From: Bacteroidota bacterium
GTDB lineage: Bacteria; Bacteroidota; Ignavibacteria; Ignavibacteriales; Melioribacteraceae
Reading direction: 5' to 3'
Length of the DNA stretch: 64,000 nt
Assembly: GCA_021824635.1 (NCBI GenBank)
Contig: JAKAKD010000103.1
Location: 1-64,000 of the forward strand
Shown here: piece by piece, positions 13,287 to 35,939 of the stretch
Position numbering within the stretch: the first letter of the stretch is position 1
How the letters are laid out: each line of letters begins with the position of its first letter
Notes under the pieces: model-generated
Database searches by the model: none
Told to the model about the DNA's origin: nothing
What the model saw: only the letters and a program-made list of their open reading frames with translations
Program-made: the position numbers and the translations under genes

Positions 13287-14441
13287 TTATTTAAGCACTT
13301 CAGCCAGTTTCTCAACAACAGTATCTAGATCTTCATAACTTATCACCAAAGGCGGAAGCATACGTAAAACAGTCGTTCCAGCGGGCAGTGAAATAATTCC
13401 CTTGCTTAACAATTCAATTATTACCGGTTGAACTTTATCCTTTAACTCAATGCCAATCATTAAGCCAATGATTCTTATTTCACGAATTTTTGAGAGTTGA
13501 AGTTTTTCCAATTTTTCTTTGAAATATTTTCCTTTTGCTTCAGCTTCTTCCCAAAGTTTATTCTCAGTCATAAAACCGATTGAAGCGATTCCGGCTGAAC
13601 AAGCAAGAGGATTCCCGCCGAACGTTGAACCGTGCTTACTTTTTTCGACTTTGATTTTATCCGAGCATAAAAGTGCGCCCATTGGAAAACCGCCGGCAAT
13701 TGATTTAGCAACAGTCATCATATCAACTTCAATTCCAAGATGTTCAATTGCAAACATTTTTCCAGTACGGCAAAATCCACTTTGTATTTCATCAATAATT
13801 AGAAAAATATTTTTCTCGTCACATAACTGTCTAACTTTTTGAAAATATTCTTTATTACCGATATTAATTCCACCCTCGCCTTGAACAGGTTCTAAAATAA
13901 TTGCGGCAGTATCATTATCAACAACTTCAGCAAGCTTCTCAAAATTATTGTATGGCACAAAAGTAAATCCTGGAACTAACGGTTCAAATCCTTCTCTGTA
14001 TTCTTTCTTATAAGTTGCGCTTAACGCGCCCATTGTTCTTCCGTGAAATCCCTTCATTGCGGCAATGAATTTTGTTTTACCGGAGTTCAACCTGGCAAAT
14101 TTGATCGCCGCTTCTACTGCTTCCGTTCCGCTATTTGTAAGAAACGCACGTGTTAAATTTTTAGGCGCAATCTCAAAAAGTTTTTCTAAGAAGAGTGCTT
14201 TTTTATCATTGTAAAAAGTATTTGGACAAGTAATAAGCGTAGCCGCTTGTTCGGAGATTGCTTGAGCGACCTTCTCGTTTCCGTGCCCAATGTTGGCGAC
14301 ACTTATACCTGCCGCCATATCAATATATTCATTGCCTTGATCGTCCCACAGACGAGCACCTTTACCTTTAACCAGAACAACTTCGCGTCTTGGGTAAACG
14401 TCCACTTCATATTTTTGAATTAACTCTTTGTAGTTTGTCAT
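13287..14441 (-). CDS. lysJ: LysW-gamma-L-lysine aminotransferase (LysJ/ArgD family)
   Basis: A 384-residue class III PLP aminotransferase, transferring an amino group from glutamate to the LysW-bound aminoadipate semialdehyde. Visible are LTNSGTEAVEAAIK, KGFHGRTMGALSAT, IILEPVQGEGG, IIDEIQSGFCRTG and the PLP lysine Lys246 in TVAKSIAGGFPMGA. ArgD proteins look alike; the LysW neighbourhood decides the name, and a dual role in arginine synthesis is possible. The ATG overlaps the lysZ stop by 4 bases (ATGA). It is the last gene of the cluster. Confidence 0.9.
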   Translation of the reverse strand: MTNYKELIQKYEVDVYPRREVVLVKGKGARLWDDQGNEYIDMAAGISVANIGHGNEKVAQAISEQAATLITCPNTFYNDKKALFLEKLFEIAPKNLTRAFLTNSGTEAVEAAIKFARLNSGKTKFIAAMKGFHGRTMGALSATYKKEYREGFEPLVPGFTFVPYNNFEKLAEVVDNDTAAIILEPVQGEGGINIGNKEYFQKVRQLCDEKNIFLIIDEIQSGFCRTGKMFAIEHLGIEVDMMTVAKSIAGGFPMGALLCSDKIKVEKSKHGSTFGGNPLACSAGIASIGFMTENKLWEEAEAKGKYFKEKLEKLQLSKIREIRIIGLMIGIELKDKVQPVIIELLSKGIISLPAGTTVLRMLPPLVISYEDLDTVVEKLAEVLK

Positions 14442-15229
14442 TGTATTGTAGTTCCTTTACCATTTAATGCATCTTTAATTGGGTTTTCTGTTCTGCCGTC
14501 CGAAAGAATTACTGTCGTATCTCCGGCGGAAAATAATTTTCTAAGAGCAAGGATTTTTCTTTTCATCCTGCCGTCAACTTTCTCTTCCATTGCTTCAAGT
14601 TCCGCTTTGGACATTTTGGGCAAAAGCGAAGATGAATCGTTTTTATCTAGAAGAAAGCCGGGGGCTTCTATTAGTGAAATAATTTTTTCTGCTTTGAATT
14701 CAGATTGAAGCAACGCGATGATATCATCGTTCTCTGAATTAATTGCGAAATTGTTCTCGTCAATTAACGGCACACTTAAAACCGGTGTGTAGCCGTTATC
14801 CAAAAGCAGATCAAGAAGTTGTTTGTTAATAGCTTTTGGCTTACCCGAAAAATCTCTCAACAAAAGAGTTTTACCACCCTCACGCACTTTTATACCGCTA
14901 TTACGTTTACCTTGAATAACTTTTCCATCAATTCCGGAAAGTCCGACTGCATTTATTCCGTTCTGTTGGCAAAGTTCTACAATGCGCTTATTTTTCAATC
15001 CGGCGTAAGCCATCATAGCTAAGTCAATAGTCTCTTCATTGCTTAGCACAGAATCATAACCTGAAAGCGAAGTAACAACTTTCTTTTGATATCCAAGTTT
15101 ATTTGCAAGATCATCACGCAGAGAATTAGCTCCATGAACGATAATAAATTTTTCTTGAAGAGTAGCGAGATCGGAAATTATTCCGTTAAGATTTATCTCC
15201 TTTCCGCCGCCAATTTTGATTAAAAGCAT
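14438..15229 (-). CDS. lysZ: LysW-aminoadipate kinase (LysZ, ArgB-like)
   Basis: A 263-residue amino-acid kinase fold protein that phosphorylates the side-chain carboxylate of LysW-bound aminoadipate. It shows IGGGKEINLNGI and FIIVHGANSLRDDLA near the N-terminus, TSLSGYDSVLSNEETIDLAMMAYAGLKNK in the acyl-substrate region, and ILSDGRTENPIKDALNGKGTTI at the end. It belongs to the branch acting on LysW substrates rather than acetylglutamate, judged mostly by context. Its ATG lies 10 bases inside the end of the amidotransferase gene, so it is coupled to it. Confidence 0.9.
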   Translation of the reverse strand: MLLIKIGGGKEINLNGIISDLATLQEKFIIVHGANSLRDDLANKLGYQKKVVTSLSGYDSVLSNEETIDLAMMAYAGLKNKRIVELCQQNGINAVGLSGIDGKVIQGKRNSGIKVREGGKTLLLRDFSGKPKAINKQLLDLLLDNGYTPVLSVPLIDENNFAINSENDDIIALLQSEFKAEKIISLIEAPGFLLDKNDSSSLLPKMSKAELEAMEEKVDGRMKRKILALRKLFSAGDTTVILSDGRTENPIKDALNGKGTTIQ

Positions 15230-15864
15230 TTGTACTCCGTTAAAGTATTATTTTGAACCGGCAGCCAATCGTTCTCACCTACAAAAGATTCGGAACAGAC
15301 AACAAAAGAATCTTCCGACAATTTAGAATGCATTGTAAAGTAATCTACAGCATCATTAAAATGAGAATAAACATAAGCTGCTTTTGAATCGGTCATAATT
15401 ATATTCATTGCACGGATGAAGCTTGATTTCTTTTTTATAATCTCAGTTCCTTTTTCCAATGCGTCTTTGATATTTCCTTTATCAAACCGTTTTATATAGT
15501 TAAATATTTTCTCGGCGCCTATTCTTCCTTCTTCTTTTATTTTCACTCCGCTCAACTGTCCGTTAAAAACGAAAATATATTTATCATCATAAAACGGCAT
15601 GTTGTTTTCAACTACAATCCCTTCATCTTTGAATGCGCTTCTTGCGTGAGCGATCAGCCGGGTTGAAGAGCCAAACCGGGAAAGATCATCTTCCCAGATT
15701 GGGTTAACATTTTTGTAGTAGTTCCAAACACCGTTTTGCAGATAAGCGCATCCCCATCCGTGGCCTTGGTATTCTTTACTTTTTTTAGATATTTCAGAAA
15801 ACTTTGATAAGTATTCAGAAACAGAAAATTCTTTTTTCGAGTTAGCGTAAAGTAGTCTGCACAT
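15220..15864 (-). CDS. Class II glutamine amidotransferase-like protein inside the lysine cluster
   Basis: A 214-residue Ntn-type glutaminase domain with the nucleophile Cys2 at the start (MCRLLYANS). It also shows GHGWGCAYLQNGVW, LIAHARSAF and an FNGQLSG loop equivalent to the FxHNG substrate loop. The family (YafJ/EgtC-like) hydrolyses glutamine or gamma-glutamyl bonds. No classical step of LysW-dependent lysine synthesis needs glutamine nitrogen, so its presence between lysY and lysZ, with a 10-base overlap to lysZ, is unexpected. Possible roles are release or editing of gamma-glutamyl-linked intermediates on LysW, or an unrelated passenger. Function is unproven. Confidence 0.8.
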   Translation of the reverse strand: MCRLLYANSKKEFSVSEYLSKFSEISKKSKEYQGHGWGCAYLQNGVWNYYKNVNPIWEDDLSRFGSSTRLIAHARSAFKDEGIVVENNMPFYDDKYIFVFNGQLSGVKIKEEGRIGAEKIFNYIKRFDKGNIKDALEKGTEIIKKKSSFIRAMNIIMTDSKAAYVYSHFNDAVDYFTMHSKLSEDSFVVCSESFVGENDWLPVQNNTLTEYKCF

Positions 15865-15942: not shown

Positions 15943-16986
15943 TTATATAGGATGAAGCCCCGGGAAATTCAGCCCTGTGCTTTCATCAAAACCATACATT
16001 ATATTAAACGCCTGCAGAGCTTGACCTGCAGCGCCTTTCATCAAATTGTCAATAGCACTAATAACAACAAGTCTATTAGAGAATTCATCTTTCTTGAATC
16101 CAATATCGCAGAAGTTTGTTCCGCTTAATAATTTCGGTTCGGGAAATCGGTAAATCCCGTCACTCTCTTTTACTATTCTTATGAACGGTTCATTCGCATA
16201 GGCATCGCGGTAAATTTTCCAGATATCCTTTTCTTGTAAATCTTCTTTCAAAAAAACATGACATGTTGCGAGCAAACCGCGGACCATATCAATAGCAGTC
16301 GCAGAGAAATGAATTTGCATCTGTTTGCCAAAAGACATTTCCTGAAGCATCTCTGCAGTGTGTCTATGTTGAGTCGGCTGATATGAACGCACAACTCCGG
16401 CACGTTCGGGATGATGCGAACCTTCATTTACTTTATTTCCGCCTTCACTGGAACCAACTTTAACTTCAATTACGGTTCTATCTAATTCTACCAATCCATT
16501 TTTGTAAAGCGGATATAAACCCAGAATACTCGCGGTAGCGTTACAACCAGCGCTCGAAATGAAATTAGCTTTCTTCATCTCTTCGCGGTGAAGTTCGGGA
16601 ATTCCATAAACAAACTCGTTTAATAATTCCGGGCGGGCATGTTTATGACCATACCATTTTTCATATTCATTCAAATCTTTTAGGCGAAAGTCTGCGCTTA
16701 GATCAATGATCTTTGGCGCTAATTTTTTGTAGTCATCAATTTTATTTTGAGAACTATTGTGAGGAAGACACAAGAATAAAAGATCGCATGTTTCCAGTTC
16801 ACTGGCAGATACAAATTTTAATGTCGTTGATTTACGCAAATTGGGATGAATCTTGTGAACAAATTTTCCCGTGTAACTTTCCGATGTAACTTGTTTCACT
16901 TCTACGTTCGGATGAAATAATAATAGTCGAAGTAATTCTCCTCCAGTGTAACCGGAAGCACCGACAATCGAAACATTTACTTTCAT
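15943..16986 (-). CDS. lysY: LysW-aminoadipate semialdehyde dehydrogenase/reductase (LysY, ArgC-like)
   Basis: A 347-residue NADPH-dependent reductase that converts the LysW-bound acyl phosphate to the semialdehyde. The N-terminal Rossmann motif is VGASGYTGGELLRLLLFHP; the catalytic Cys is in SSAGCNATASILGLYPL; KVGSSEGGNKVNEGSHHPERAG and HRHTAEM are typical of the LysY/ArgC family. Its ATG overlaps the lysX stop by one base (TAATG). A 78-base spacer with an inverted repeat separates it from the amidotransferase gene. Confidence 0.92.
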   Translation of the reverse strand: MKVNVSIVGASGYTGGELLRLLLFHPNVEVKQVTSESYTGKFVHKIHPNLRKSTTLKFVSASELETCDLLFLCLPHNSSQNKIDDYKKLAPKIIDLSADFRLKDLNEYEKWYGHKHARPELLNEFVYGIPELHREEMKKANFISSAGCNATASILGLYPLYKNGLVELDRTVIEVKVGSSEGGNKVNEGSHHPERAGVVRSYQPTQHRHTAEMLQEMSFGKQMQIHFSATAIDMVRGLLATCHVFLKEDLQEKDIWKIYRDAYANEPFIRIVKESDGIYRFPEPKLLSGTNFCDIGFKKDEFSNRLVVISAIDNLMKGAAGQALQAFNIMYGFDESTGLNFPGLHPI

Positions 16987-17834
16987 TATTTTCTTCCTTC
17001 GGCAACTTGTAATACATATTCAACCATTTTCTTGGGAATGTTAACTCCGGTAGTTGTGATACTGTTTTTGTATTCCATCGTATAGTTTACTTCGTTAATC
17101 ATCAAGCCCTGCGCGGACTCAAAAACATCTATTGCAACAATTCCGCCTCCTACTGCTTTTGCGGCACGGACAGAGATATCATTAAGCTCTTCAGTAACTT
17201 CGCATTTTGTAGCCACTCCGCCTCGGGCAGTATTTGTAATCCAATGCGGTGAAGTTCTATAGATAGCAGCAATACACTTATCTCCGATAACAAAACTGCG
17301 AATATCTTTCCCCTTCTTTTCAACATATTTTTGGATGTAGAAGATTGAATGATGATAAGAACCAAGAACAGTTTTATGTTCAAGAATTGCCTCGGCGGCG
17401 TCACGGTCATTTACTTTTGAAAGAAGTCTTCCCCATGAACCGACTGCAGGCTTCAAAACAACAGGGTAACCCATCTCTTCAATAGCTTGGAGTGCAGATT
17501 CTTCGGTGAATGCAACTCTGACTTCCGGCTGCGGAACATTATTTTCTGCAAGTGCGCATGATGTAAGAAGTTTATCACCGCAAATTGTTGCAACATTATA
17601 AGTGTTAACACATTTCACTCCGGCTGATTCGAATAATTTTAATCCGTGAAGAGCACGGGAGTGATTGATGCATCTTTCAACAACAATGTCCAGATCAAAT
17701 TTATCTTTACCAAGATTGAAAGTGATCTCGCGGTCGTCAATCATTTTCAATTCAACACCCTTAATGGCTTTGAATTCATCAATCAAAAATTTTTCATCTT
17801 TTCTAATCAACGAATGAATCAGACCTATTTTCAT
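16986..17834 (-). CDS. lysX: LysW-aminoadipate ligase (LysX, ATP-grasp)
   Basis: A 282-residue ATP-grasp ligase that joins the amino group of alpha-aminoadipate to the C-terminal Glu of LysW. Features include [20 protein letters not shown], the ATP-binding stretch [31 protein letters not shown], and the metal and substrate region [19 protein letters not shown]. This last stretch closely resembles LysX of Thermus as I remember it, rather than the glutamate-using ArgX. A good SD (AGGAGAAG) precedes the ATG. A hairpin in the gap after the homocitrate synthase gene may modulate its expression. Confidence 0.92.
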
Positions 17835-17872: not shown

Positions 17873-17894
17873 AGCTGAGATCTACATCTCAGCT
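17873..17894 (-). terminator. Intra-operon hairpin between homocitrate synthase and lysX
   Basis: A perfect 9-bp stem (AGCTGAGAT/ATCTCAGCT) with a 4-base loop overlaps the homocitrate synthase stop codon. On the minus strand it is followed by CTACTTTTTAAATTT. It could be a partial terminator that lowers downstream lysXYZJ expression. Confidence 0.5.
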
Positions 17895-19055
17895 ATTATA
17901 AATCTTATGATGTTTTACAGCGTCAACGATATGTTTCAGTTCGGCAAGATCAACAGTGCGACCACGTTGACCGACAGATTTGACTTCCTTGAGAACATCT
18001 ATCTGATGAGCATCGTCTAGCGATTCTTCACCGATTAGTTTTAATGCATAACGAAGCGATGCAATACCAGACATATGATCAAGCGAGAATGTTCTTGTTC
18101 TTCCAAGAATATCCGGGCTCAAGCTTTCATAATGCATAGGGTTGACAGACGCAGCGTGGGTATGAACTCCAGCGCAGTGTGTAAAAGCATTCTTCCCTGT
18201 GATTGGATAATTAGCTGGAATTGGAATTCCGGAATGTTTACTTACCAAATCATAAAGTTCAACAAGTTTTCCAAGATTCCATTTATTCTGATTGTAATCA
18301 ACGGTTAAAACAGTTAGAAGCTGAGCGAGATCTACTATGCCGGCTCTTTCGCCAAGTCCTAATGCAGCAGCATCAATAATATTTGCGCCTGCGCGGTAAG
18401 CATCGAGCGCATTTGCAAGAGCAAGTCCGCGGTCGTTATGACAATGCACAGCTATTTTAGGATGTAAATTTTGCTTGTCTAATTCTTCAATCAAGCGTGA
18501 AATATAGTCGTACATACTTCTTGATGTACCCGGAACCATATATCCGGTTGTATCTGCAACGCTGATAATATCAGCTCCGGCTTCCACTGCGGCAGTTGCA
18601 GCTTTAACAACATTTTCAAATTGCGAGCGGACTGTATCTTCCGGTGTGTAACGTATCAACAAATTAGGATTTTGGTTCTTGGCATATTTTATAACATCGG
18701 TAATTAATTTAATTGCGGAATCAAGATCCTTCTTGAAAACAGTTTCAAGTCTTTCATCCGAAACGCAATAAAATATTCCAAGAAATTTCACACCGCACTC
18801 AAGCGCAAGATCAACATCGCTTTGAAGCGAACGTGAATGTGCGCCTACAATTGATTTTAATCCTTTTTGAGCAATGGCTTTAACAGCAGCATGAATTTCA
18901 GGCGTTACCATCGGATGTCCCGATTCAATAATATCAACGCCTATTTCATCTAACAGACTGGCGATTGCAAGTTTGATATGTTTATCAAAATAAACGCCGG
19001 GTGTTTGTTCGCCTTCGCGAAGTGTAGAGTCTAATACCCAGACCAAATCACTCAC
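17889..19055 (-). CDS. Homocitrate synthase family protein
   Basis: A 388-residue TIM-barrel acyl-CoA condensing enzyme: VLDSTLREGEQTPGVYF at the start, ESGHPMVTPE, AVHCHNDRGLALANALDAYRAGANIIDAAALGLGERAG. It lacks the long C-terminal regulatory domain of 2-isopropylmalate synthase. With lysW and lysX beside it, homocitrate synthase (acetyl-CoA plus 2-oxoglutarate, first step of the aminoadipate route) is the best call. NifV- or citramalate synthase-like activity cannot be excluded by sequence alone. It starts at GTG, overlapping the end of lysW by 8 bases. Confidence 0.88.
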   Translation of the reverse strand: MSDLVWVLDSTLREGEQTPGVYFDKHIKLAIASLLDEIGVDIIESGHPMVTPEIHAAVKAIAQKGLKSIVGAHSRSLQSDVDLALECGVKFLGIFYCVSDERLETVFKKDLDSAIKLITDVIKYAKNQNPNLLIRYTPEDTVRSQFENVVKAATAAVEAGADIISVADTTGYMVPGTSRSMYDYISRLIEELDKQNLHPKIAVHCHNDRGLALANALDAYRAGANIIDAAALGLGERAGIVDLAQLLTVLTVDYNQNKWNLGKLVELYDLVSKHSGIPIPANYPITGKNAFTHCAGVHTHAASVNPMHYESLSPDILGRTRTFSLDHMSGIASLRYALKLIGEESLDDAHQIDVLKEVKSVGQRGRTVDLAELKHIVDAVKHHKIYNS

Positions 19056-19215
19056 CCCAATCTTCTTCTTCTTGAGGAGCTTCTTGAACTTTTGGAGGAT
19101 TTACAGAAACGACTTCCAATTCAGTTCCGCAATCCGCACACTCAATTAATTCTCCTTGGACAGCGTCTTTTGCTAATCCTATCTCTGCACCGCAGACAGG
19201 GCATTCGGTTTTCAT
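19048..19215 (-). CDS. lysW: LysW amino-group carrier protein
   Basis: A 55-residue acidic protein. It has a small zinc ribbon (Cys5, Cys8, Cys26, Cys29, in ECPVCG and ECADCG) and the hallmark C-terminus EDWGE, whose last Glu55 carries the substrate. LysW protects the amino group of aminoadipate and presents the chain to LysX, LysZ, LysY and LysJ. A strong SD (AAGGAAG) precedes the ATG. It is the first gene of the cluster, overlapping the next by 8 bases, and confirms that lysine is made by the carrier-protein aminoadipate route rather than via diaminopimelate. Confidence 0.96.
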   Translation of the reverse strand: MKTECPVCGAEIGLAKDAVQGELIECADCGTELEVVSVNPPKVQEAPQEEEDWGE

Positions 19216-19244: not shown

Positions 19245-19275
19245 CAAAAGTAGGAAACAATTTTTTCCAACGCAA
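19245..19275 (-). promoter_or_regulatory. Putative promoter of the lysW operon
   Basis: TTG, exactly 20 bases, then TACTTTTG followed by CATCA. This is a full match to the Bacteroidota -33/-7 promoter pattern TTG...TAnnTTTG. It lies 30-60 bases before the lysW ATG. Confidence 0.7.
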
Positions 19276-19341: not shown

Positions 19342-19361
19342 TTATGAATAATTATTCATAA
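19342..19361. promoter_or_regulatory. ARG-box-like palindrome upstream of lysW
   Basis: A perfect 20-base palindrome, TTATGAATAATTATTCATAA. Its central 18 bases fit the ArgR operator consensus wnTGAATwwwwATTCAnw at every fixed position. It lies 67 bases upstream of the lysW promoter and 26 bases after the stop of the M23 gene. The alternative is a weak terminator for that gene (CGATTTTT follows on the minus strand). Confidence 0.5.
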
Positions 19362-19387
19362 TAATGGATGAAGATGCAGAAGTGCTT

Positions 19388-20662
19388 TTAGTTCTTGGGA
19401 TCTGCATTTTTCGATTCGGCAATCGAAGGCTGATCGTTAACAGATGTTATCTTTTCCAGAAAGCTTTTTTCAACTTCATCAAACTCTTTCTTATTCTTTT
19501 TACTGACCGGTCCGGAAGACTGATTTTTTTCTTTTAATGGATTTACTTGCTTTCCATTTTTCCAAAATCTGAAACAAACATGCGGTCCGGTTGCCAAACC
19601 CGTCATTCCTACATAACCAATAGTCTGTCCTTGGGTCACATGAGCACCGCGCCGAATTCCTTTTGCGAAACGAGACATATGTAAATATTGTGTTGTATAG
19701 GTTCCGTTATGTTGCACTTTAACATAGTTTCCGTTGCCGCTTGTATAACCGGCTTCTATAACTACTCCGGTTGCAACTGTCATTATCGGTGTTCCTGTAG
19801 CGGCGGCGTAATCTGTTCCTAGATGAGCTTTATTCCTATGTAATATTGGGTGATATCTATTAGAAGAATACCGGGAGGTAATTCTGTATCTGAATTTAAT
19901 TGGTGCAGTTAGAAACATTCCTTGCAAGCCATTTCCGTGTTCATCATAATAACTGCCCTCTTTTTCTCTATCGAATCTGAAAGCATAATAATCTTTTTTC
20001 CGGTAATTAAATTTTGCTGCAAGAATTTTTCCAACCTGGACGGGTTCATCATTTACATTTATTTCTTCATAAATAATTGTAAAGGTGTCATTCTCCCGTA
20101 AAGTTCCAAAATCAATCTGGCTTTCATATATATCCGCTACAGTAAATCCAACTTCTTTTTTGACACCTTTATCTAATAGAGATTGAATCAGGTTATCCTT
20201 GATATTACCGCTGACTGTTACTTGTTTTATGGTGAATGGTTTTTGTTTTTTATAAATGTTTATCGCATCACTTAAATCAAAAACAACATAGTTCACCGGG
20301 TCTTTCTTATATACAAGATATTTCACAGTTTCAACGGAATCCCATTTTGCATAAATATACAATTCATCATTCGTTCTAAAACTTCTTAGAGGAAATATGT
20401 TAAGCGCCTTTTTTTCAATCTCATTAATTTTTTGCTGGGACACTCCGTGCGGAATTAATATATCGGAAAGTGTTTGGTTGGATTCAATTGTATCGCGGAC
20501 TTCTATAAGATCGTTAACGGCTAATCCAAATTGATTCGGTTTCGGTTTTTCTTCTTGAACTTTAGTTTGCGTTTTTTCTGTGCAGTTAGTGATTGCGAAG
20601 ATTAAAACTGTTAGACTCATCCCGGTGAGAAAGAGTTTTCTGAGGTATTTATTTAGCGCCAT
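19388..20662 (-). CDS. M23 (LytM-type) peptidase-like lipoprotein
   Basis: A 424-residue protein with a lipobox (LIFAITNC, Cys27), a LysM/G5-like middle region (LSDILIPHGVSQQKINEIEKKALNIF), and a C-terminal M23 domain. His280 and Asp284 (HLGTDYAA) and His361 (GPHVCFRF) are present, but the second His of the usual HxH is Cys363. M23 enzymes cut peptidoglycan cross-bridges; some members without all zinc ligands instead activate amidases. A charged C-terminal tail follows the domain. The gene probably belongs with moxR, 48 bases upstream. Confidence 0.88.
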   Translation of the reverse strand: MALNKYLRKLFLTGMSLTVLIFAITNCTEKTQTKVQEEKPKPNQFGLAVNDLIEVRDTIESNQTLSDILIPHGVSQQKINEIEKKALNIFPLRSFRTNDELYIYAKWDSVETVKYLVYKKDPVNYVVFDLSDAINIYKKQKPFTIKQVTVSGNIKDNLIQSLLDKGVKKEVGFTVADIYESQIDFGTLRENDTFTIIYEEINVNDEPVQVGKILAAKFNYRKKDYYAFRFDREKEGSYYDEHGNGLQGMFLTAPIKFRYRITSRYSSNRYHPILHRNKAHLGTDYAAATGTPIMTVATGVVIEAGYTSGNGNYVKVQHNGTYTTQYLHMSRFAKGIRRGAHVTQGQTIGYVGMTGLATGPHVCFRFWKNGKQVNPLKEKNQSSGPVSKKNKKEFDEVEKSFLEKITSVNDQPSIAESKNADPKN

Positions 20663-27043: not shown

Positions 27044-27069
27044 TAACCCCGCGATTAATCGCGGGGTTA
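27044..27069. repeat. Perfect 26-base GC-core palindrome
   Basis: Half-site TAACCCCGCGATT followed by its exact reverse complement. The core CCCCGC-ATTAA-GCGGGG recurs in degenerate form at 56323-56342 after tuf. No T run follows on either strand, so it is more like a dispersed palindromic repeat than a simple terminator. Confidence 0.55.
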
Positions 27070-35234: not shown

Positions 35235-35939
35235 TTATTGTTCGATTGGTTCTACTCTTCTTGCGCCGACATAACGTTTTTTATAATAAGCCGCATCAAG
35301 AGATGAGACTGTAACGCCCAGAGAGCGGCTTGCATGAACAAATTGATTCTCACCGAGATAAATCCCAACATGCCCCGGATTAGATGCCCGGCGAGTATTA
35401 AAAAATACAAGATCGCCGAATTGCAGATCATCTTTTGAAATTTTTTCTCCGACAGCATATTGTTCTCTGGCAGAGCGTGGAAGATCAATTGAAAGCGAGT
35501 TTTGAAATACTTGTAATGTAAATGCGGAACAGTCAATTCCCTTTTGTGTACTTCCGCCATATTTGTAAGGAGTATCTAAAAATTTTATCACTTCTAATAA
35601 AATTTTTTCGCGGGTAGTAAGAGCAACGTTAAATTCTTTCAGCTTTTCAACATTCAGAGCAAATTTTGATTTATCAACCGGAGCTTCTGCAGGCGGCTGT
35701 TCATCAAACTCATCATCAGCTGATGATGAATCTGCCGGATCGTTAAATATTATTCTTTCATTTTTTGCGTTAGATTTTTTTACGCTGTCTTTAGAAAAAA
35801 TTTTGACTGCTGCCGGTTTTTCTTTTTTACTGTTATTTTTTTTATAACGCTGAGCGTTGGACGATGCGGAACAACTTACAAAAATTGCAAGAACAAGAAG
35901 TCCCAGAAGAAAAGTTCTAGTCAAATATATTAGCCTCAT
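35235..35939 (-). CDS. NlpC/P60 peptidoglycan hydrolase lipoprotein
   Basis: A 234-residue protein with a lipobox (LAIFVSCSAS, Cys23), a low-complexity linker (residues ~25-95, Lys/Ser/Asp rich) and a C-terminal NlpC/P60 domain. The catalytic Cys137 (GIDCSAF), His190 (NPGHVGIYLG) and a third polar residue His202 (FVHASRS) are present. Such enzymes cut the peptide stems of peptidoglycan. Its ATG is 11 bases after the sigA stop, so it is the last gene of the vertex-protein/sigA operon. Confidence 0.92.
   Translation of the reverse strand: MRLIYLTRTFLLGLLVLAIFVSCSASSNAQRYKKNNSKKEKPAAVKIFSKDSVKKSNAKNERIIFNDPADSSSADDEFDEQPPAEAPVDKSKFALNVEKLKEFNVALTTREKILLEVIKFLDTPYKYGGSTQKGIDCSAFTLQVFQNSLSIDLPRSAREQYAVGEKISKDDLQFGDLVFFNTRRASNPGHVGIYLGENQFVHASRSLGVTVSSLDAAYYKKRYVGARRVEPIEQ

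Follow-up and report, generated by a model that had tools for sequence, protein, structure and literature searches.

The window, by which we mean the whole stretch of 64,000 nucleotides that was analysed, belongs to a genome of 3.06 Mb (94% complete); Melioribacter and other Ignavibacteria are the named relatives closest to it. It carries a lysine operon of the order lysW-hcs-lysX-lysY-GATase-lysZ-lysJ, and a gap of 172 bp between the start codon of lysW (ATG at 19215) and the stop codon of an M23 peptidase gene (19388) contains a palindrome, a second and weaker box and the promoter of the operon. The features of this region are listed here in the order of their coordinates.

13287-14441, minus strand: lysJ, transaminase (TIGR00707, 439 bits; cut-off 410)
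14438-15229, minus strand: lysZ, [LysW]-aminoadipate kinase (NF010659, 246 bits, over cut-off)
15220-15864, minus strand: class-II glutamine-amidotransferase-like gene, EgtC-like, with Cys2 (PF13230, 24.9 bits; cut-off 23; a weak EgtC match)
15943-16986, minus strand: lysY, ArgC family (TIGR01850, 414 bits; the arginine operon has an argC of its own)
16986-17834, minus strand: lysX (TIGR02144, 351.7 bits, over cut-off)
17889-19055, minus strand: homocitrate-synthase-like gene, for the step that opens the aminoadipate pathway (TIGR02146, 344 bits, under the cut-off of 413.55)
19048-19215, minus strand: lysW, amino-group carrier protein (TIGR01206, 77.9 bits; cut-off 53.2; PF21344)
19245-19275, minus strand: predicted promoter of the lysW operon, TTG-N20-TACTTTTG, with Bacteroidetes-like -33/-7 elements (probable start site at about 19240)
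19342-19361, no strand assigned: promoter-proximal ARG box within a perfect 20-bp palindrome, an exact match to the consensus
19363-19380, minus strand: promoter-distal degenerate ARG box TCTGCATCTTCATCCATT (14-bp core TGCATCTTCATCCA at 19365-19378, which fits TGNATN4ATNCA)
19388-20662, minus strand: M23 peptidase gene, upstream neighbour, outside the control unit (in several box-bearing relatives it has moved or another gene takes its place)

LysW, LysX, LysZ, LysY and LysJ are encoded together in this operon; LysW, LysX and LysZ score over the cut-offs of their own families, and LysY and LysJ over those of the ArgC and ArgD families. The name of the homocitrate-synthase-like gene rests on its operon context, because the model for 2-isopropylmalate synthase scores equally well. 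LysK, the enzyme for release of lysine from LysW, was sought with TIGR01902, which was never over its cut-off in this genome and 25 relatives. The EgtC-like amidotransferase gene stands between lysY and lysZ in 22/22 relatives with a contig that covers the position (L021-L046). EgtC cleaves a gamma-glutamyl amide bond, and for this reason the EgtC-like protein may replace LysK in freeing lysine from LysW.

The palindrome TTATGAATAATTATTCATAA (19342-19361) is perfect over 20 bp, and its inner 18 bp, TATGAATAATTATTCATA (19343-19360), form exactly the imperfect 18-bp palindrome that the ARG-box consensus WNTGAATWWWWATTCANW describes, with agreement at all fixed positions. An earlier note on this DNA had claimed such a match, and the exact 18-bp box bears it out; the two lengths given there, 172 bases for the gap before lysW and 67 bases from palindrome to promoter, were also found right on re-measurement. 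The exact sequence TGNATAATTATNCA has two sites in the 3.06-Mb genome, one before argC and one before lysW. The strict half-site pattern TGAATN4ATTCA occurs at 17 sites genome-wide, against three for a reversed control pattern; the lysW palindrome is the sole clearly intergenic site among them, nearly all of the other 16 lying within reading frames and one at the extreme end of a frame. Perfect 20-bp palindromes number three in the window, against 0.15 expected per 64 kb in a first-order random model matched in composition. One of the other two, CCCCGCGATTAATCGCGGGG at 27047-27066, has T/A runs on either side, lies between metG and a gene for a DNA methyltransferase and looks like an ordinary two-way terminator; the remaining one, TCATCATCAGCTGATGATGA at 35710-35729, lies within an open reading frame whose sequence suggests an NlpC/P60-like lipoprotein and is probably a coding chance. 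Taken by itself, the lysW palindrome is unusual but not decisive, and the site rises above chance because of a second box, a matching operator at argC and conservation in relatives.

The second box, which is absent from the earlier note, lies 20 bp from the palindrome, centre to centre, and precedes it on the lysW strand. The two boxes stand in tandem with a gap of 2 bp (a 20-bp period), within the 2-3 bp range of ArgR operators, as at argC, where the promoter carries TGCATAATTATGCA and then TGTATAATTATGCC, likewise 20 bp apart; the operator thus recurs in front of this genome's own arginine genes. Scored with a pair matrix trained on argC sites, the lysW box pair of this genome reaches 16.3, whereas the highest background score is 5.2. 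A composite box-pair pattern, itself derived from the argC and lysW sites, has no further match in the genome at one mismatch or fewer, and the operons that carry the full box pair here are two only, argC and lysW. The palindrome is very probably, to judge from these sequence features, the strong half of a two-box candidate ArgR operator.

The absence of an argR homologue had been named in the earlier note as a ground for abandoning its proposal; exactly one full ArgR is encoded in the genome, inside an argC-argJ-argB-argR-argG-argH operon. Its DNA-binding winged helix (PF01316, 69.8 bits) and arginine-binding domain (PF02863, 67.5 bits) both score over cut-off, and TIGR01529 gives 127.4 bits, just below its cut-off of 130.45. 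The best match among solved structures is 1f9n, an AhrC-type arginine repressor/activator that we take to be AhrC of B. subtilis, and the protein retains the stretches TQATLSRDL and GTIGGDDT, which presumably belong to the DNA-binding site and the arginine-binding site of ArgR, respectively. argF is present as a separate gene outside this operon (G000:C57:61483-62454), with no ARG box upstream of it in this genome. It adjoins a carbamate-kinase-like gene (named from sequence; L152), and the missing box together with this neighbour suggests that argF may belong to a unit that is catabolic or under separate control. A wider ArgR regulon drawn from single-box matches was considered and rejected: apart from lysW, the strict sites fall within genes or at gene ends, the one-mismatch sites lie near unrelated genes, and argF is boxless.

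For comparison among genomes, the argC operator was gathered from 16 genomes, in which its tandem design is nearly invariant, and the lysW sites were left out of training. A profile of 15 argC operators, run over the lysW loci, gave 30 hits in 359 kb, 28 of them just upstream of lysW; genome-wide in the present organism, the profile of argC operators placed the lysW site second, behind argC itself, with an E of only 0.08. A symmetric box matrix made from argC sites only was also scored as pairs 20 bp apart, against a background of about 350,000 positions in the same lysW loci whose best score was 5.24. This maximum is exceeded in 16 of 27 lysW regions (that of the present genome and those of 15 of 26 relatives), with pair scores of 7.8 to 32.5 bits. 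Among the seven closest genomes, pairwise identity peaks at 0.85 at the palindrome, is 0.4-0.5 on each side of it and is higher again at the promoter. The earlier note had proposed comparison with relatives, and had counted loss of the palindrome there against its own reading; the pair is kept in 15 of the 26 relatives that share the operon and in 15 of the 17 genomes whose ArgR is of the same lineage as here. That note had also put forward ArgR-type control of the LysW operon, a proposal that gains support from the ArgR protein, the matching argC tandem and this conservation.

The ArgR sequences form two fully supported clades, A and B (G025 was assigned by identity to clade A, at 71%, and G014 to clade B, at 44%). 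The lysW box pair is present in 15 of the 17 genomes with a clade-A ArgR and in none of the nine others, which are eight with a clade-B ArgR and one without ArgR (Fisher p 2e-5, uncorrected for descent). Exceptions occur in both directions: the pair is absent from the clade-A genomes G013 and G017, and G016 has the pair with no clear ArgR in its small 1.9-Mb record. The arginine operons of clade A (argC-J-B-R-G-H) contain no argD, and argD stands directly before argR in six of the eight clade-B genomes. The association of the pair with argD loss (Fisher p 0.003, uncorrected) goes back to just three changes per trait in the tree, too few for a phylogenetic test of joint evolution, and the link with argD absence is inseparable from ArgR lineage.

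Across the argR loci (L053-L076), close relatives carry either of two distantly related arg operons, one being argC-J-B-R-G-H without argD and the other mostly having argD before argR and a separate ArgR clade. Clade-B genomes (L116-L118) carry ARG-box-like sites far upstream of argC (about 200-275 bp), spaced about 30-31 bp from each other, a layout unlike the 20-bp tandem. In L039, L041 and L042, a conserved TGTTACA-N5-TGTAACA palindrome lies about 120 bp upstream of lysW after a single ARG-like box, which suggests a second lys-operon regulator in that group.

The position of the palindrome, 27 bp beyond the M23 stop codon and on the same strand, together with a fold better than that of shuffled sequences (z -3.9), would fit an intrinsic terminator of the M23 gene, a role that the earlier note had wished to see weighed. 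The G+C-rich stem and following T run of such a terminator are, however, lacking at the palindrome, whose stem is nearly all A-U (-4.1 kcal/mol) and was not called in the terminator scan; the site matches the operator learnt at argC, and the boxes persist in L022, L025, L026 and L035, where no M23 gene lies directly upstream. On the weak stem and the retention of the boxes away from M23, the terminator was rejected as very unlikely. A palindrome arisen by accident is scarcely credible: the genome is A/T-rich and has 17 strict half-site palindromes, nearly all in genes, but the lysW palindrome and its partner box are kept in 15 relatives while their flanks diverge, and chance was rejected on this conservation. 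The site might instead be the operator of some other regulator with a similar A/T-rich target, and the TGTTACA-N5-TGTAACA palindrome borne near lysW by relatives with a clade-B ArgR indicates that other regulators may act on the operon; this tandem with its 20-bp spacing nevertheless recurs at the argR-containing arginine operon, the two exact sites of the genome are those at argC and lysW, and we consider this origin very improbable. Weak points of the ArgR-operator reading itself include the degenerate distal box and the location of the lysW boxes off the promoter. With these taken into account, it is highly probable that a tandem ArgR operator, as predicted from sequence, controls the lysW-hcs-lysX-lysY-GATase-lysZ-lysJ operon.

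How a real ArgR operator would act at lysW depends on its geometry. The motif TTG-N20-TAnnTTYG occurs near the start codon in 26 of 27 lysW upstream regions, against 0.29 expected, and in this genome the palindrome is 67 bp upstream of the promoter, which begins at 19275. Every argC operator of the set has TTG-N20-TATAAT within it and its boxes consequently overlap the promoter, the classical repressor layout; overlap of this kind, which is usual but not strictly defining for ArgR operators, is not seen at lysW. At lysW, the proximal box of the box-bearing genomes precedes the -7 element by 57-106 bp, in classes near 105, 95, 75 and 64 bp with outliers at 62 and 57. These spacings are mostly close to whole helical turns and suggest helical phasing of the boxes with the promoter (Rayleigh p about 0.05 on seven length classes), with the reservation that half-sites recur each 10 bp and a shift by one half-site preserves phase by itself. 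AhrC/ArgR activates some catabolic operons, and ArgR bound upstream and in phase with the promoter could likewise activate the lys operon, as the distances near whole turns, set against the overlapping boxes of argC, would allow. Under activation, however, arginine shortage would lower LysJ, an unhelpful response if LysJ stands in for ArgD; the phasing is of marginal significance; and in Thermus thermophilus ArgR is said to control the LysW lysine cluster by repression (work attributed to Fujiwara et al., 2006). Activation is thus a possible but doubtful mode. Modest repression at lysW is somewhat favoured over it in our analysis, the direction being judged from physiology and from the Thermus precedent.

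In E. coli, ArgR occupies a pair of 18-bp boxes separated by 3 bp (PMC6640053). The present system resembles the ArgR/AhrC operators of E. coli and Bacillus in its 18-bp WNTGAATWWWWATTCANW box, in the placement of two boxes on one DNA face and in a single ArgR with both Pfam domains; it differs from E. coli in a gap of 2 bp (20-bp period) rather than 3, and from both in half-sites TGCAT/TGTAT beside TGAAT, in lysW boxes 67 bp upstream of the promoter rather than over it, and in a full pair at only two operons of the genome. The likeness to T. thermophilus, drawn by description and not from site sequences, is that of a LysW-type lysine cluster under ArgR, in a bacterium with the classical arginine pathway as well; the differences are the other phylum and, here, an argD-less arg operon, distal boxes and a Bacteroidetes-like promoter. 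In Sulfolobus and Thermococcus, a bifunctional LysW pathway has enzymes common to lysine and arginine/ornithine synthesis (PMC10433800). Sharing of enzymes between the two syntheses is the common element, but here, unlike in these archaea, ArgC, ArgJ and ArgB are proteins distinct from LysY and LysZ, and only the transaminase LysJ appears to be shared, in which it resembles E. coli ArgD, which serves two pathways. ArgR operators are already known, as reportedly is ArgR on the LysW cluster of Thermus; the present case is marked by an unusual distal layout, a two-operon regulon and a specific shared-enzyme explanation.

The classical arginine route requires ArgD between ArgC and ArgJ. LysJ is the sole ArgD-family protein over cut-off (410) in this genome; the next-best match to the family is an ornithine aminotransferase (370 bits), and further aminotransferases are more distant. 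Because argD is absent from the operon and LysJ is the only member over cut-off, LysJ as ArgD is the simplest reading, and the enzyme probably serves both lysine and arginine synthesis. The earlier note had supposed that LysX, LysZ, LysY and LysJ all serve arginine as well, as in some archaea. That idea stands for LysJ and falls for the other three: the genome has its own argC, argJ, argB, argG, argH and argF, and since argC, argJ, argB and argF are separate genes, a part for LysX, LysY and LysZ in arginine synthesis is unsupported and they probably have none; LysZ, moreover, scores best as [LysW]-aminoadipate kinase.

In the mechanism that we propose, an arginine-loaded ArgR hexamer would bind both boxes, a step strongly inferred from the sequences. 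At argC, where the boxes overlie the promoter, bound ArgR would switch it off; at lysW, with the boxes 67 bp upstream of the promoter, the predicted effect is a modest repression acting at a distance. When arginine is low, ArgR would release and the arg and lys operons would rise together, and LysJ would take over the conversion of N-acetylglutamate semialdehyde to N-acetylornithine, for which ArgD is missing, beside its own step in lysine synthesis. Whether the argD-less operon with its own ArgR lineage relies on LysJ, so that the distal boxes tie LysJ supply to arginine need in what is essentially a two-operon regulon, we regard as an evenly balanced proposition.

No work on ArgR regulation together with a shared enzyme in Melioribacter and its relatives was found in the literature searched, and the analysis predicts both for these organisms. 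That close relatives carry one or other of two exchangeable arg operons, of which one is argD-less, amounts to a natural experiment on a regulator and a shared enzyme moving together, and the proposed dependence on LysJ offers a testable reason for a lysine operon to respond to arginine.
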